Below, in pieces: positions 16,545 to 35,293 of a stretch of 35,441 nt of DNA (the stretch's first letter is position 1; every line of letters starts with the position of its first letter). Source of the stretch: Polaribacter sp. (GTDB lineage Bacteria; Bacteroidota; Bacteroidia; Flavobacteriales; Flavobacteriaceae). The position numbers and the translations under genes are program-made. The DNA lies in NCBI GenBank assembly GCA_023258495.1, contig JALQZD010000328.1:1-35441 (forward strand), in the 5' to 3' direction. The notes under the pieces are model-generated. The model was not told where the DNA came from and did not search any database. It worked only from the letters and a program-made list of their open reading frames with translations.

Positions 16545-18665
16545 ATGAATCATAAAAAGGTACATACGCCTGTTGCTAAAAAGGAACCTGTAAAATTTAA
16601 AATGCATGGCGATATTCGAATTGATAATTACCATTGGATGCGCATATCTGATGCACAAAAAAATGCGTCAGTAAAGGATGAACACACGCAAGAAGTAATT
16701 GATTATCTTGAGGTTGAAAACACTTATTATGACACTGTAATGGATTACACAAAATCTTTCCAGGAGAAACTTTTTCTTGAAATGAAAGGAAGGATTAAAG
16801 AGGATGATTCTTCAGTGCCATATAAAGATAACGGCTATTATTACAATATCAGATACGAAACAGGAAATCAATATCCAATTTATTCTAGAAAAAAAGGATC
16901 ATTAAAAGCTTCAGAAGAAGTTCTCTTTGATGTGAATAAAGAAGCAAATGGTTATGATTATTTTCATTTGGGTAGTTTAAATGTATCACCAAATAATAGA
17001 TTTGTCGTTTTTGCGACAGACACGGTTAGTAGAAGACAGTATTTCTTGCGAATAAAAGATTTAAAAACAGGTAAAATCCTTGATGATATTATCGAAAACA
17101 CAACGGGTGGATCAGTTTGGGCAAATGATAATAAGACAATTTTTTATACGAAGAAAAATCCAACGACGTTGCGAAGTGAGAAAATTTACCGTCATATTTT
17201 GGGTACGCCAGCATCCGAAGACGTGGAAGTATATCATGAGAAGGATGAAACATTTGGTACGTATGTTACCAAGTCTAAATCGAGACAATATATCATTATT
17301 GGCTCCTACAGCACAGTATCGACCGAGGCACAATTTCTAGACGCCAATAATCCATTTGGTGAATTTCAACTAATTCAACCTAGAGAGCGAGATCATGAAT
17401 ATTCAGTCTCTCATTATGGTGATAGTTTTTATATCTTAACCAATAAGGATAAAGCGATTAATTTTAAATTGATGAAAACCCCGGTTTCAAGCCCATCAAA
17501 GGAAAATTGGGTTGATGTGATTCCGCATAGAGATGATACGCTTTTAGAAAGCTTTTCGATTTTTAAGGATTTCTTGGTCCTAGAAGAGCGTACGAACGGT
17601 TTAGACAAAGTCCGTTTTAAGAAATGGGATGAATCTCAAGATTATTACCTTCCGTTCGATGAAGAAACGTATACAGTAGGGGTGTATTCTAATTCTGAAT
17701 TTGATACAGATATCATTCGATATTCGTACAACTCATTTACAACTCCAAACTCCATCATCGATTTTAATATGAATACTCAAGAAAAAACGATTCTAAAGGA
17801 GCAGGAAGTAATGGATGGAAAGTTTGTAAAATCAAATTATAAAAGTAAACGCGTATGGGCTACTGCTAGAGATGGTAAAAAAGTACCCATTTCTTTGGTA
17901 TATCATAAAAACACTTTGTTAGGGAAAGATACCCCTATTTTACAATATGCCTATGGATCTTATGGTGCAACGATTGGAGATCGATTTTCAACGACTCGAT
18001 TGAGCTTGTTAGATAGAGGATTTGTCTATGCCTTAGCGCATATTAGAGGCGGTCAATACTTAGGGCGTGAATGGTATGAAGACGGGAAAATGTTGAATAA
18101 AAAGAATACATTCACCGACTTTGTTGATTGTTCGAAGTTCTTAATTGAAAATAATTACACTTCAGCGCAGCATTTGTATGCGATGGGTGGATCTGCTGGT
18201 GGATTATTAATGGGTGTAATTTTGAATATGAATCCAGAATTGTACAATGGAGTACTTGCTGCAGTGCCATTTGTTGATGTTGTTTCAACAATGTTGGATG
18301 AATCCATTCCATTAACCACAGGTGAATTTGACGAATGGGGCAATCCGAAGAATCAAGAATACTACGATTATATCAAATCATATTCGCCTTACGATCAGGT
18401 GAAAGCACAAAATTACCCGAGTATATTGGTTACTACAGGATTTCATGATTCTCAAGTACAATACTGGGAACCTGCTAAATGGGTGGCGAAGTTGAGAGAG
18501 TTGAAAACGGATAACAATGTACTTTTACTCAAAACCAACATGGGTACTGGACATGGAGGCGCATCTGGTCGATTTGATGCTTTAAAAGAGACTGCAATGG
18601 ATTATACCTTTCTGTTAGCACTTGAAAACAAATTGGTAGATACTGAACTCATAAATCCTGAATAA
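16545..18665 (+). CDS. ptrB: Oligopeptidase B (S9A serine peptidase)
   Basis: A 706-residue prolyl oligopeptidase-family enzyme. An N-terminal segment and seven-bladed propeller (about 75-410) precede the alpha/beta hydrolase domain. The catalytic triad is S550 (GGSAGG), D635 (FHDSQV) and H670 (GHGG). The 85- and 35-residue spacings equal those of E. coli OpB (S532, D617, H652). OpB cuts short peptides after Arg or Lys. No signal peptide is visible, so it should be cytoplasmic. About 20 residues longer than E. coli OpB. Transcribed divergently from ybaB; next gene downstream in 78 bases is the cysteine synthase-like gene with its own promoter-like element. Confidence 0.95.
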   Translation: MNHKKVHTPVAKKEPVKFKMHGDIRIDNYHWMRISDAQKNASVKDEHTQEVIDYLEVENTYYDTVMDYTKSFQEKLFLEMKGRIKEDDSSVPYKDNGYYYNIRYETGNQYPIYSRKKGSLKASEEVLFDVNKEANGYDYFHLGSLNVSPNNRFVVFATDTVSRRQYFLRIKDLKTGKILDDIIENTTGGSVWANDNKTIFYTKKNPTTLRSEKIYRHILGTPASEDVEVYHEKDETFGTYVTKSKSRQYIIIGSYSTVSTEAQFLDANNPFGEFQLIQPRERDHEYSVSHYGDSFYILTNKDKAINFKLMKTPVSSPSKENWVDVIPHRDDTLLESFSIFKDFLVLEERTNGLDKVRFKKWDESQDYYLPFDEETYTVGVYSNSEFDTDIIRYSYNSFTTPNSIIDFNMNTQEKTILKEQEVMDGKFVKSNYKSKRVWATARDGKKVPISLVYHKNTLLGKDTPILQYAYGSYGATIGDRFSTTRLSLLDRGFVYALAHIRGGQYLGREWYEDGKMLNKKNTFTDFVDCSKFLIENNYTSAQHLYAMGGSAGGLLMGVILNMNPELYNGVLAAVPFVDVVSTMLDESIPLTTGEFDEWGNPKNQEYYDYIKSYSPYDQVKAQNYPSILVTTGFHDSQVQYWEPAKWVAKLRELKTDNNVLLLKTNMGTGHGGASGRFDALKETAMDYTFLLALENKLVDTELINPE

Positions 18666-18725
18666 GAATCTTCATAAATTGAGGAAATTTATCTTGAATT
18701 TTTAAGGACAATTCAACAGGAATTG

Positions 18726-18743: not shown

Positions 18744-19739
18744 ATGGAACAGAACCCAAAGATTCATAAAAACATTCTAGAACTTATTGGAAATACACCA
18801 ATGGTTGAGTTAAATACAATAACCAAAGGTTTAAAAGGTAAGTTCGTAGCCAAATTAGAATCCTTCAATCCCGGTCACTCTGCAAAAGATAGAATTGCAC
18901 TACATATTATTGAAAATGCAGAAGAAAAGGGAATTCTAAAACCGGGTGCTACAATCGTTGAAACTACTTCTGGAAATACAGGTTTTAGCCTTGCAATGAT
19001 TAGTCTTGTAAAAGGATACAAATGTATTTTAGCTGTTAGCGATAAATCATCAACCGATAAAATTGAGATGCTGCAATGCATGGGAGCTGAGGTACATGTA
19101 TGTCCTGCAAATGTAAAACCTGATGATCCAAGATCATATTACGAAGTAGCTAAAGCAATTCATAAAAGAACTCCAAATTCTATTTACATCAACCAATATT
19201 TTAATGATTTAAATATTGAAGCCCACTACAGATCCACTGGTCCAGAAATTTGGAAGCAAACCGATGGAAAAGTAACGCATGTTGTTGTGGCTAGTGGAAC
19301 AGGTGGAACTATTTCAGGAACCGGTAAATACTTAAAAGAGCAAAATCCGGATATTCAAATTCTTGGTGTTGACGCTGTTGGATCCGTCTTAAAGAAATAC
19401 CATGAGACAGGTGAATTGGACCCGAGTGAAATCAAGCCTTACAAAATTGAAGGACTCGGTAAGAATTTAATTCCGTCCGCTACAGATTTTTCGGTTATTG
19501 ATACCTATGAAAAAGTAACCGACAAAGAAGCAGCTCTATGTGCTAGAGAAATTCTTGAAACCGAGGGGATTTTTGGTGGGTATACTACAGGTGCTGTATG
19601 GTGTGCTACCAAACAATACGCCAAAAAAGGTGTATTTACAGCGCATAGTTATGTGGTACTTCTATTCGCAGATCATGGTTCTCGCTACCTGAACAAGGTC
19701 TATAGTAATACTTGGATGGAGGATCAAAAATTCATCTAA
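18744..19739 (+). CDS. Cysteine/cystathionine synthase-like PLP enzyme, possible cysteate synthase
   Basis: A 331-residue fold-type II PLP enzyme of the CysK/CBS family. Cofactor lysine K48 is in [10 protein letters not shown], the substrate loop is TTSGNTG, and the phosphate-binding loop is [10 protein letters not shown]. It lacks C-terminal CBS regulatory domains. By motif it is closer to cystathionine beta-synthase than to CysK (SAKDRI). It is followed, 77 bases on, by an alpha-oxoamine synthase. In sulfonolipid (capnine) producers a PLP synthase of this family makes cysteate from phosphoserine and sulfite, and the oxoamine synthase uses it. That role is an inference from adjacency; plain cysteine or cystathionine synthesis remains possible. 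ATG 18744 is chosen because the upstream ATG (18723) lies within the promoter element. Confidence 0.85.
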
Positions 19740-19816
19740 AACGTTTGTAGATTAAACATTTGAAAAACTGCAAAAAAATAGGTTAATTTGCACATTGACT
19801 ACTTAATTGAGAAATT

Positions 19817-21067
19817 ATGACGAATGACTTATTTGACCGTATAAAAGCAGACAAAGGACCTCTAGGAAATTGGGCCGATAAAGCAGAGGGCTATTATGTA
19901 TTTCCAAAATTAGAAGGGCCAATTTCAAATCGAATGCTTTTCAATGGTAAACGTGTCATTACTTGGAGTATTAATGATTACCTAGGTCTTGCGAATCACC
20001 CAGAAATCATAAAGATTGATACCGAAGCTGCTGCTGAGCATGGTATGGCTTATCCTATGGGTGCAAGAATGATGTCTGGTCACTCTAAATATCATGAACA
20101 ATTAGAGCAGGAATGTGCTGAGTTTGTAGGTAAAGAAAAGTCGTATTTGGTAAACTTCGGATACCAAGGGATTATGTCTGCAATTGATGCCTTAGTCGGT
20201 AAAAACGATATCATTGTGTACGACGTTGATACGCATGCGTGCATCATTGATGGAGTGCGTCTTCACCCAGGAAAACGATTTGTGTACAAACACAATGATA
20301 TTGAAAGTTTTGAGAAAAATATGAAACGTGCCGTTCGAATGGCTGAAAAGACTGGAGGAGGTATTTTAGCGATTTCAGAGGGTGTTTTTGGAATGAGAGG
20401 TGAACAAGGTCGTTTAAAAGAAATCTGTGCTTTAAAAGAAAAATATAACTTCAGATTATTAGTTGATGATGCTCATGGGTTCGGAACCTTAGGAGAAGGA
20501 GGAAGAGGTACAGGTTATGAACAGGGAGTACAGGATCAGATTGACGTTTATTTTGCAACTTTTGCGAAGTCAATGGCTGGTATTGGGGCTTTCCTTGCCG
20601 GTGACAAAGATGTAATTCAATTCTTACAATACAATATGCGTTCTCAAATGTTTGCGAAGTCATTGCCAATGGCAATGGTGAAAGGAGCATTGAAACGTTT
20701 AGATATGATTCGTAAAATGCCAGAGCTTAAAGATAAGTTATGGGAAAATACGAATGCACTACAAAATGGATTGCGGACTGCTGGTTTCGATTTAGGAACA
20801 ACTCAGACTTGTATCACACCAGTTTACCTGAAAGGTGATATTCCTGAAGCAATGGCTATGGTAAATGACCTTAGAGAAAATTATGGTGTATTCTGTTCAA
20901 TTGTTGTGTATCCTGTCATTCCAAGAGGATTAATTATCTTACGATTGATTCCTACCGCTACGCATACACAAGAAGATATCGATGAGACTATTACGGCCTT
21001 TTCCGGAATTCGTGAGAAATTAGAGAATGGAACGTATAAGCGTATCGCTGCTGCCTTAGTTTCATAA
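19817..21067 (+). CDS. Alpha-oxoamine synthase, possible cysteate acyltransferase
   Basis: A 416-residue fold-type I PLP enzyme of the alpha-oxoamine synthase family (8-amino-7-oxononanoate synthase, serine palmitoyltransferase, glycine C-acetyltransferase). Cofactor lysine K251 lies in FATFAKSMAGIGAF, preceded by LLVDDAHGFGTLG. The N-terminal extension (NDLFDRIKADKGPLGNWADKA) and the segment MGARMMSGHSKYH resemble the flavobacterial branch that, as I recall, includes the cysteate-fatty acyl transferase of capnine synthesis (cfat; sulA in Alistipes). No other biotin genes are nearby, which argues against BioF. Serine palmitoyltransferase is the main alternative. The neighbour upstream is a CysK/CBS-like enzyme. 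A terminator follows at 21093-21127. Confidence 0.88.
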   Translation: MTNDLFDRIKADKGPLGNWADKAEGYYVFPKLEGPISNRMLFNGKRVITWSINDYLGLANHPEIIKIDTEAAAEHGMAYPMGARMMSGHSKYHEQLEQECAEFVGKEKSYLVNFGYQGIMSAIDALVGKNDIIVYDVDTHACIIDGVRLHPGKRFVYKHNDIESFEKNMKRAVRMAEKTGGGILAISEGVFGMRGEQGRLKEICALKEKYNFRLLVDDAHGFGTLGEGGRGTGYEQGVQDQIDVYFATFAKSMAGIGAFLAGDKDVIQFLQYNMRSQMFAKSLPMAMVKGALKRLDMIRKMPELKDKLWENTNALQNGLRTAGFDLGTTQTCITPVYLKGDIPEAMAMVNDLRENYGVFCSIVVYPVIPRGLIILRLIPTATHTQEDIDETITAFSGIREKLENGTYKRIAAALVS

Positions 21068-21092
21068 TACCAGTTTATTTATAACTCAGACG

Positions 21093-21127
21093 TTACTCCA
21101 TGAATTGTAATGGAGTAGTTTTTGTTT
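21093..21127 (+). terminator. Terminator of the alpha-oxoamine synthase gene
   Basis: The stem ACTCCAT/ATGGAGT (21095-21101 with 21110-21116) has an 8-nt loop and is followed by AG and a T-rich tract, 27 bases after the stop codon. Confidence 0.75.
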
Positions 21128-21291: not shown

Positions 21292-22023
21292 ATGCGTGAA
21301 AAACTAAAATCAGTTGTAGAAGATAATACTTCAAGAAAAGGAAAGGTTTTTGATTATATTATTCAGGTTCTCATCATCCTGTCTTTAATAGCATTTTCTC
21401 TTGAGACACTGCCGAATAATAGCCAAGCCCTTCAACATATTTTGTTTTACATCGAAGTTTTTTGTGTCGTTGTATTTTCCATAGAATATCTGCTTCGGAT
21501 CTATGTTGCAGATCAACCGCTACGTTACATTTTTAGTTTCTTCGGATTAATTGATTTGCTGGCCATTTTGCCTTTTTACCTAAATATAGCAATTGATTTA
21601 AGGTCACTAAGAGCATTTAGGATATTCAGAATTTTCAGAGCTTTGAAACTCGTTCGATACAACAGAGCACTGCGAAGATTCCGCATTGCTGCTGAAATTG
21701 TTCGCGAAGAAATCATATTGTTTTTTATGGTTGCGTCAATATTAATTTTTCTCTCAGCTGCTGGAATTTATTTCTTTGAAAATGAAGCACAACCTAAATT
21801 ATTCAGTTCTATTTTTGATAGTTTGTGGTGGGCTATAGTCACCTTAACCACAGTGGGTTATGGTGATGTTTTTCCGGTTACCCTAGGTGGAAAAATATTT
21901 ACCTTTTTCGTGTTGATAATTGGTGTCGGTATTGTGACATTACCGGCTGGAATAATGGCAACAGCATTAACAAAAGCAAGAACCATAGAGGAGGCCGAGG
22001 TTCAGAAAGAAAAAAGAAGTTAA
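21292..22023 (+). CDS. Voltage-gated-type potassium channel
   Basis: A 243-residue six-helix channel subunit. Hydrophobic S1-S3 are at about 22-40, 48-71 and 80-100. An S4-like helix carries arginines at every third position (R107, R110, R113, R116). S5 and S6 flank a pore loop with the selectivity filter TVGYGD at 187-192. The filter predicts K+ selectivity; four subunits form the pore in the inner membrane. It has no C-terminal RCK/TrkA domain, only a short charged tail. The gene is preceded by a 224-base spacer holding the upstream terminator. Its stop codon directly abuts the stop of the convergent helicase gene, with no spacer. Confidence 0.93.
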   Translation: MREKLKSVVEDNTSRKGKVFDYIIQVLIILSLIAFSLETLPNNSQALQHILFYIEVFCVVVFSIEYLLRIYVADQPLRYIFSFFGLIDLLAILPFYLNIAIDLRSLRAFRIFRIFRALKLVRYNRALRRFRIAAEIVREEIILFFMVASILIFLSAAGIYFFENEAQPKLFSSIFDSLWWAIVTLTTVGYGDVFPVTLGGKIFTFFVLIIGVGIVTLPAGIMATALTKARTIEEAEVQKEKRS

Positions 22024-33088: not shown

Positions 33089-34243
33089 ATGAAGAATAAA
33101 AAACTCGGATTAAATTCCATTTGTGTTCATACCGGAGAAGTAGAGGATACTCAATTTAAAGGTGCGGTGTCACCAATTTTTGTAGCTACTTCTTACGCAT
33201 TTGATGATGTCGATGTGAAGAGATACCCAAGATATTTTAACACACCTAACCAGGAGCAGCTGGCTAAAAAAATTGCAACCTTAGAACATACCGAAAACGC
33301 AATGATTTTCAGTTCGGGTATGGCTGCGATTAGTCATAGTATGATGGCGTTTTTGAAGTCTGGTGATCACGTAATTTTACAACAGGTAATCTATGGCGGA
33401 ACTTTCAATTTTGTGGTAAAGGAATTCGAGAAATTCGGAATAGAATACACTTTTACCGATAGCTATGATGTCAATGATTTCAAGGCTTTGCTGCAAAAAA
33501 ATACGAAAATCATTTATATCGAAACACCTTCGAATCCGTTACTGGGAATTACCGATTTAAGAGCGATTACAGAGCTGGCAAAAAACAATGGTATTCTAAC
33601 CATGATAGACAATACCTTCGCGTCTCCAATTAATCAGAATCCCCATGATTTTGGTATCGATATTATCGCGCATTCTGCTACAAAATATATGGGTGGTCAC
33701 TCTGATATATGTGCTGGAGCAGTTGCGGCTTCGAATTTGCATATCGAGCAAATTTGGGCTACCTCTATCAACTACGGCGGAAATTTAAGTGAGTATACGA
33801 TTTGGCTTTTGGAAAGAAGTTTAAAGACCTTGAATTTGAGGGTAAAAGAACAAACTAGAGTTGCTCATAAATTGGCCACTTACCTTTCTGATAATAAGGA
33901 TATTGATACGGTTTATTATCCTGGATTACCTTCTCATCCAGGTTATGATATCGCAAAGGAGCAAATGAAAGGGTTTGGTGCTATGTTATCGTTCGAATTG
34001 AAATCTGGAATTGATCCCATGGTGTTTCAACGAAATTTAAAATTTATTAAACCAAGTATGAGTTTAGCAGGTTTAGAATCTACCACGGTAAGCCCGGCAC
34101 AAACTACCCACGCATTACTATCTGAAGAGGAGCGCTTAGAAAGAGGAATTAGAAATGGATTGATTCGTTTTTCGACAGGTATTGAAGAAGTTGAGGATTT
34201 AATTGAAGATATCGAACAAGCGATTCATGCCTCCAAACACTAA
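33089..34243 (+). CDS. Cystathionine gamma-synthase/lyase family PLP enzyme
   Basis: A 384-residue Cys/Met-metabolism PLP enzyme. Cofactor lysine K199 is in HSATKYMGGHSD, the IYIETPSNPLLGITD block and the substrate-binding SLAGLESTTVSPAQTTHA segment are present. It may act as cystathionine gamma-synthase, cystathionine gamma-lyase or methionine gamma-lyase; sequence reading alone does not separate them. Together with the CysK/CBS-like gene at 18744 it could serve transsulfuration, but the two are far apart and not in one operon. Divergent from the DUF2520 gene with a 130-base spacer, in which I see no riboswitch. Confidence 0.9.
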   Translation: MKNKKLGLNSICVHTGEVEDTQFKGAVSPIFVATSYAFDDVDVKRYPRYFNTPNQEQLAKKIATLEHTENAMIFSSGMAAISHSMMAFLKSGDHVILQQVIYGGTFNFVVKEFEKFGIEYTFTDSYDVNDFKALLQKNTKIIYIETPSNPLLGITDLRAITELAKNNGILTMIDNTFASPINQNPHDFGIDIIAHSATKYMGGHSDICAGAVAASNLHIEQIWATSINYGGNLSEYTIWLLERSLKTLNLRVKEQTRVAHKLATYLSDNKDIDTVYYPGLPSHPGYDIAKEQMKGFGAMLSFELKSGIDPMVFQRNLKFIKPSMSLAGLESTTVSPAQTTHALLSEEERLERGIRNGLIRFSTGIEEVEDLIEDIEQAIHASKH

Positions 34244-34576: not shown

Positions 34577-35293
34577 ATGAAATTAGATATTTTGGCCTTC
34601 GGGGCACACCCAGATGACGTTGAATTGGGATGCAGTGGAACAATAGCCAAAGAGGTTGCTTTGGGTAAAAAAGTTGGAATCATTGATTTGACAAGAGGAG
34701 AACTTGGAACCAGAGGAACGGCTGAGATAAGAGATCTAGAAGCCAAAGATGCAGCAAAAGTTTTAGGCGTATCTGTGCGTGAAAATTTAAATTTTAGAGA
34801 TGGATTTTTTGTAAATGATGAAGCACATCAAATGGAGATTATTCAGGTATTACGAAAATATCAACCAGATATTGTTTTGTGCAATGCAGAGAAAGATCGA
34901 CATATTGATCACGGAAAAGGAGCGAGTTTAGTGTCTGATGCTTGTTTTTTAAGTGGTTTGAGAAGAATTCAAACTACTATGAACGGGACTCAACAGGAAG
35001 CTTGGCGACCAAAACATGTTTTTCATTACATCCAGTGGCAGCCCTTAATTCCAGATTTTTATGTTGATATAACTGGTTTTATGGATGAAAAGGTGAATTC
35101 AATTTATGCCTACAAATCACAATTTTATGATCCTAATAGCAAGGAACCTGAAACACCCATTTCATCAAAGAATTTTATAGACAGTGTTATCTACAGATCT
35201 AAAGACTACGGAAGAGTGGCAGGTGTGGAATATGCTGAAGGATTCACCACGAATCAAGCACTTGTCATTTCATCATTAGAACAATTAAAATAG
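34577..35293 (+). CDS. bshB1: Bacillithiol deacetylase BshB1
   Basis: A 238-residue PIG-L/LmbE-family zinc deacetylase. The zinc-site motif AHPDDVE gives H11, D13 and D14, and the second motif RHIDHGKG gives H109 and H112. RGELGTRGT and the C-terminal KSQFYD segment match BshB1. It removes acetate from GlcNAc-malate, the second step in making the thiol bacillithiol, in the cytoplasm. bshA and bshC are not nearby. Normal length. Two promoter-like boxes precede it; the tRNA-His gene follows in the same direction 56 bases on, with its own promoter. Confidence 0.93.
   Translation: MKLDILAFGAHPDDVELGCSGTIAKEVALGKKVGIIDLTRGELGTRGTAEIRDLEAKDAAKVLGVSVRENLNFRDGFFVNDEAHQMEIIQVLRKYQPDIVLCNAEKDRHIDHGKGASLVSDACFLSGLRRIQTTMNGTQQEAWRPKHVFHYIQWQPLIPDFYVDITGFMDEKVNSIYAYKSQFYDPNSKEPETPISSKNFIDSVIYRSKDYGRVAGVEYAEGFTTNQALVISSLEQLK

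Follow-up and report, generated by a model that had tools for sequence, protein, structure and literature searches.

A putative capA-capB gene pair for the first steps of sulfonolipid synthesis in Polaribacter

Two adjacent genes of a Polaribacter genome are very probably those for the first two steps of capnine and sulfonolipid synthesis in a Polaribacter-type flavobacterium, a cysteate synthase (CapA) and a cysteate fatty acyltransferase (CapB, also known as Cfat or SulA); the probability of this reading is put at roughly 0.93. The initial annotation had described a CysK/CBS-like gene and an alpha-oxoamine synthase (AOS) gene lying 77 bases apart on the same strand, and had read them as a candidate sulfonolipid (capnine) gene pair. 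The arrangement is confirmed and both genes are intact, and the reading is supported by family matches, active-site residues, phylogenetic trees and the conservation of the pair, while the reactions and the product are predicted from characterised relatives. Sulfonolipids have been linked to gliding motility in Bacteroidota and to the signals that bacteria send to choanoflagellates and animals (PMC11211663, PMC10191378).

The locus and its neighbourhood

The window, i.e., the whole stretch of DNA analysed (35,441 nucleotides), is contig C5 of a 2.2-Mb genome that consists of 408 contigs and is rated 84% complete. The features around the pair are as follows.

16545..18665, + strand: prolyl-oligopeptidase family gene (oligopeptidase B-like; PF02897 and PF00326), ending 78 bases upstream of capA
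18744..19739, + strand: capA, predicted cysteate synthase (CapA) of 331 aa, with a match to NF053679, a place in the CapA clade and 7/7 separating positions
19740..19816, + strand: intergenic gap of 77 bases between capA and capB, with no terminator-like site reported inside
19817..21067, + strand: capB (cfat, sulA), predicted cysteate fatty acyltransferase of 416 aa, with matches to 28eh and 7u7h, the active-site residues and a place in the CapB clade
21092..21119, + strand: weak terminator-like hairpin 3' of capB, from the terminator scan
21292-22023: ion-channel gene downstream of capB

The open reading frame check found capA open from a TTG at 18723, with an ATG start at 18744. Pfam places the capA product in PF00291 (PALP, 261 bits) and the capB product in PF00155 (Aminotran_1_2, 119 bits). 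The terminator scan reported no site between the oligopeptidase gene and capA or between capA and capB, and one site 3' of capB. An operon is plausible, and is put no higher than that because terminator-like sites are no commoner than chance, with 2 in the region against a mean of 3.3 in shuffled sequences. The Bacteroidota-type promoter pattern matched the window 8 times against 11 by chance, and sigma-70-like sites numbered 23 against 24.7 expected. Elsewhere in the window, a gene for the bacillithiol deacetylase BshB1 (34577-35293; 302 bits, cut-off 182.5) adjoins one for a PLP enzyme of Cys/Met metabolism of the cystathionine synthase/lyase type (33089-34243).

Identity of the two enzymes

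In a PDB search, the capB product matched 28eh, named "Cysteate-C-fatty acyltransferase" (692 bits, 71% identity), the crystallised SulA of Alistipes finegoldii, 7u7h (573 bits, 60% identity), and the serine palmitoyltransferase (SPT) 3a2b (245 bits, 35% identity). SulA has been reported to use cysteate and acyl-ACP as substrates, and not serine or phosphoserine (PMC9304779). Nine of its active-site residues (N53, G115, Y116, H140, D217, H220, T248, K251 and R376) are identical in the capB product, which also carries Lys281, so that all ten residues checked agree, at the same numbering as in SulA. Lys281 has been proposed as a mark separating sulfonolipid from sphingolipid enzymes (PMC9304779). 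This position is Lys in all 32 CapB rows and Ala in all 21 SPT rows (20 proteins matching CapB at 32-37% identity, plus 3a2b), and is occupied by Asn in Kbl and Thr in BioF; the marker thus holds in a broader set than the four SulA sequences with which it was introduced. In a 55-row tree, the AOS protein falls with SulA and 28eh on a branch of 32 rows (support 100/100), apart from the SPT clade (100/94) and from Kbl and BioF, as the initial annotation had supposed.

It could be argued that the second gene encodes an SPT of sphingolipid synthesis, and that a cysteine or cystathionine synthase gene precedes it by chance. SPT and CapB indeed belong to one fold family, both rely on PLP chemistry and their active sites are mostly alike, with 3a2b agreeing at nine of ten positions checked, the exception being Phe for Tyr116. 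Moreover, the NCBIfam SPT model for Bacteroidota gives the capB product 294 bits, but this is far under its cut-off of 640. The presence of Lys rather than Ala at position 281, the much lower identity to SPT than to the cysteate enzymes, the separation of the two clades and the conserved pairing of capB with capA leave this explanation hardly credible, and SPT was rejected as the function of the second gene. The second gene is therefore taken as coding for the CapB/Cfat/SulA enzyme, predicted from its relatives to use cysteate and acyl-ACP.

The product of the first gene scores 601.8 bits against the NCBIfam 20.0 model NF053679 (cysteate synthase CapA), whose cut-off of 600 it exceeds by 1.8 bits, and it lies under the respective cut-offs of the CBS, CysK and CysM models. 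The expectation that standard annotation would miss the link between the two genes thus stands in part: no NCBIfam model reached its cut-off for the capB product, but NCBIfam 20.0 labels the first one a cysteate synthase, so that a routine annotation could well pick it up. The curated cut-off of NF053679 is tight, because it is passed so narrowly here and excludes proteins of the neighbouring family f2 that share the CapA clade; six f2 proteins encoded beside capB score 540-552 bits, and the two of them that were placed fall inside the clade. In a 38-row tree, the capA product lies in a 17-row CapA clade (100/99) formed by proteins of the window's own family and of f2, PDB 9k2p included, and apart from CBS, CysK and CysM, in agreement with the earlier proposal. 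A protein of genome G037 joins this clade as sister only (99/88). This tree took in 8 of the 37 CapA genomes of the phylum sample described below, and two matches of genome G178 (471 and 455 bits) were left unplaced. The sister group of CapA is a 16-row Bacteroidota CBS-like clade (95/95) that includes a paralogue from contig C37 of the same genome; the CBS chains 7xrq and 5ohx and the E. coli CysK and CysM fall outside both groups, and the E. coli outgroup branches are long here and in the CapB tree, where the tree program flagged them. A comparison of 16 CapA rows with 16 CBS-like rows, leaving out L054 (truncated) and L142 (an outlier), gave seven positions that are invariant among the former and differ in the latter, and the capA product has the CapA residue at all seven. 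It is 69% identical to 9k2p, with lower values for the C37 paralogue (55%) and the two CBS chains (43-44%). Although 9k2p is the closest structure to CapA, it is not taken as a characterised reference because its PDB record gives no enzyme name.

These results also bear on the explanation in which sulfonolipids involve the second gene alone, the first serving general sulfur metabolism as a cystathionine beta-synthase or cysteine synthase. Such a role would fit the CBS-like sister group of CapA, the marginal NCBIfam score, and the content of the host genome, where two strong members of the family were found, the capA product and the C37 paralogue, and no third, CysK/CysM-like one. However, the CBS role in this genome appears to be filled by the C37 paralogue, which scores 471 bits against NF053679, under the cut-off, belongs to the CBS-like clade, and has PDB matches after 9k2p that are mostly named cystathionine beta-synthase (24 of 26 at E <= 1e-70). 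In addition, the capA product carries the CapA residues at the separating positions and its gene adjoins capB, and this explanation is considered very unlikely. The first gene is best read as coding for the cysteate synthase CapA, which is predicted from characterised relatives to form cysteate from O-phosphoserine and sulfite.

Conservation and distribution of the pair

In 88 of 110 loci, the window's own genome counted, capA is the immediate 5' neighbour of capB in the same orientation, with gaps of -35 to 322 bases, and the juxtaposition is therefore more than chance. Among the 22 other loci, 18 are short (about 1.5 kb upstream), one (L051) is cut by a contig end, and three, titled Tenacibaculum, have about 10 kb upstream of capB and no capA there. 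The second protein is 80-94% identical to its counterparts at the 80 titled loci (the best being a Flavobacteriaceae MAG at 94%, and Polaribacter-titled records ranging over 84-92%), which is the basis for placing the genome in or close to Polaribacter. At these loci, capA is in place in 74 of the 77 with enough upstream sequence. In 71 of the 74 titled loci long enough to show it, the gene before capA-capB is the oligopeptidase B-like one, which is thus a conserved neighbour of the pair with no known tie to lipid synthesis. The ion-channel gene, considered as a third pathway gene, follows capB in only one of 75 titled loci with room, and is therefore not part of the unit. Polaribacter and its near relatives, which include many uncultured marine flavobacteria, thus share a firm capA-capB pair.

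The distribution over the phylum was surveyed in a sample of 296 genomes, with thresholds of at least 380 bits for CapB and at least 500 bits for CapA (and a limit of E <= 1e-130 for CapA matches). CapB occurs in 108 genomes and CapA in 37, all of which have CapB, and every one of the 30 genomes sampled from the window's family carries both genes. Of the 37 genomes, 19 have capA next to capB and the other 18 have them apart (17 of genus g2, plus G088 of the window's own genus), so adjacency is common and not universal. In the remaining 71 of the 108 CapB genomes, neither a CapA match of at least 500 bits nor a match to the archaeal-type cysteate synthase model TIGR03844 (E <= 1e-40) was obtained. 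The CBS-like proteins of nine f3-f10 and three f23 genomes fall with CBS and not with CapA in the 38-row tree. As the usual partner of CapB, the archaeal-type enzyme was rejected: at this cut-off, which diverged versions could escape, it was found in 5 of the 296 genomes and in none of the 108 with CapB. Five f29 genomes (L156-L160), with an archaeal-type enzyme over the TIGR03844 cut-off, have AOS matches that fall with SPT (Ala281) and no CapB above 380 bits. The cysteate of CapB genomes lacking a CapA-grade gene may come from a diverged archaeal-type synthase, from CBS-like enzymes or from another source, the first being possible because a review reports the archaeal-type enzyme in Alistipes and Odoribacter (PMC10191378). 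A search for reductase or N-acyltransferase genes near distant capB genes, in which the neighbours at 20 loci were clustered, gave no neighbour family in more than four loci (the L126 fusion described below dropped out of this clustering, displaced by a longer overlapping frame), and a scan of 10 neighbours of such genes gave nothing consistent.

In three of the 108 CapB matches, CapB forms the C-terminal part of a protein of 1108-1143 aa.

L124:2145-5576, + strand: CapB fusion, genome G254
L125:4571-7897, - strand: CapB fusion, genome G219
L126:2472-5852, + strand: CapB fusion, genome G179, with a fatty acid hydroxylase-family gene directly 3'

In these fusions, AMP-binding (acyl-ligase-like) and phosphopantetheine-binding (ACP) domains precede CapB; Lys281 is kept and the three proteins form their own branch inside CapB in the 55-row tree. 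This domain order fits acyl-ACP as the donor. In a thin literature search, covering open-licence PMC papers, fusions of this kind did not come up. This acyl-ligase-ACP-CapB fusion, the CapB genomes without a CapA-grade gene, and the source of sulfite are leads less settled than the pair itself.

Predicted pathway and relation to known systems

In the published pathway, CapA converts phosphoserine to cysteate by sulfonation, CapB combines cysteate with acyl-ACP, CapC reduces the resulting 3-ketocapnine, and N-acylation follows (PMC10191378, PMC11211663). By analogy, the Polaribacter CapA, a PLP enzyme, would replace the phosphate of O-phosphoserine with sulfite to give L-cysteate, and CapB would hold cysteate on PLP (Lys251) and condense it with a fatty acyl-ACP, with loss of CO2, to give 3-ketocapnine. 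An unlinked short-chain reductase (SDR) would then produce capnine, which an N-acyltransferase would turn into the sulfonolipid. No reductase gene lies beside capA-capB in the window, which is unsurprising because in two species the gene for 3-ketocapnine reductase is reported not to cluster with cfat (PMC11211663). A gene on contig C346 of the host genome is a candidate only for this step, its product being the best of seven SDRs scanned, with the 3-ketodihydrosphingosine reductase model NF049977 as its top NCBIfam match (270.5 bits, cut-off 400). The host genome also encodes GldN of the gliding and secretion machinery.

As for substrate supply, searches of the host genome (84% complete) found no SerC, PAPS/APS reductase, sulfite reductase or cysteine dioxygenase. 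SerC is present in both relatives searched, at 435-436 bits, under the model cut-off of 443.6. The complete genome G029, of the same genus, has capA, capB and cysteine dioxygenase, with a PAPS/APS reductase match of 20.8 bits, below cut-off, and no sulfite reductase match. Because these genes occur there without sulfate-reduction genes over cut-off, it is conceivable, though doubtful, that in small-genome marine Polaribacter the sulfite for CapA comes from organic sulfur (e.g., through the oxidation of cysteine by cysteine dioxygenase) and not from sulfate reduction, in which case scavenged organosulfur would be the raw material of these sulfonolipids. The larger relative G088 of the same genus has PAPS/APS reductase, sulfite reductase and cysteine dioxygenase, which argues against such a rule for the genus.

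Published systems include CapA/CapB/CapC of Capnocytophaga and Ornithobacterium, SulA of Alistipes, Cfat of Flavobacterium johnsoniae, and CYS and CFAT of Chryseobacterium gleum (PMC11211663, PMC9304779, PMC10191378, PMC12927429). Among the open-licence PMC papers that a literature search brought up, judged by titles and the beginnings of abstracts, none is on the Polaribacter pair. The pathway is already published for relatives, so that the Polaribacter pair adds a member to a system that is not new and leaves existing knowledge of the pathway unchanged. Among its nearest counterparts is the pair of another genus, in Capnocytophaga ochracea, whose CapA (C7M8J5) and CapB (C7M8J6; described by Liu et al. 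2022) belong to the same two enzyme families, as judged here from published descriptions (PMC10191378, PMC12927429). Since the Capnocytophaga accessions are consecutive (ACU93374.1, ACU93375.1; PMC12927429), the two genes are very probably adjacent there too, and the adjacency is hence very probably known already. The Cfat of F. johnsoniae (Fjoh_2419) is assigned to the family of the capB product on the word of PMC9304779. Unlike in the window, capA and capB lie apart in genus g2 of the same family, whose identity with Flavobacterium is not established. Finally, the SulA of A. finegoldii shares with the capB product its clade and all ten active-site residues checked, but Alistipes differs in that, according to a review (PMC10191378), its cysteate synthase is of the archaeal type and stands in for CapA.
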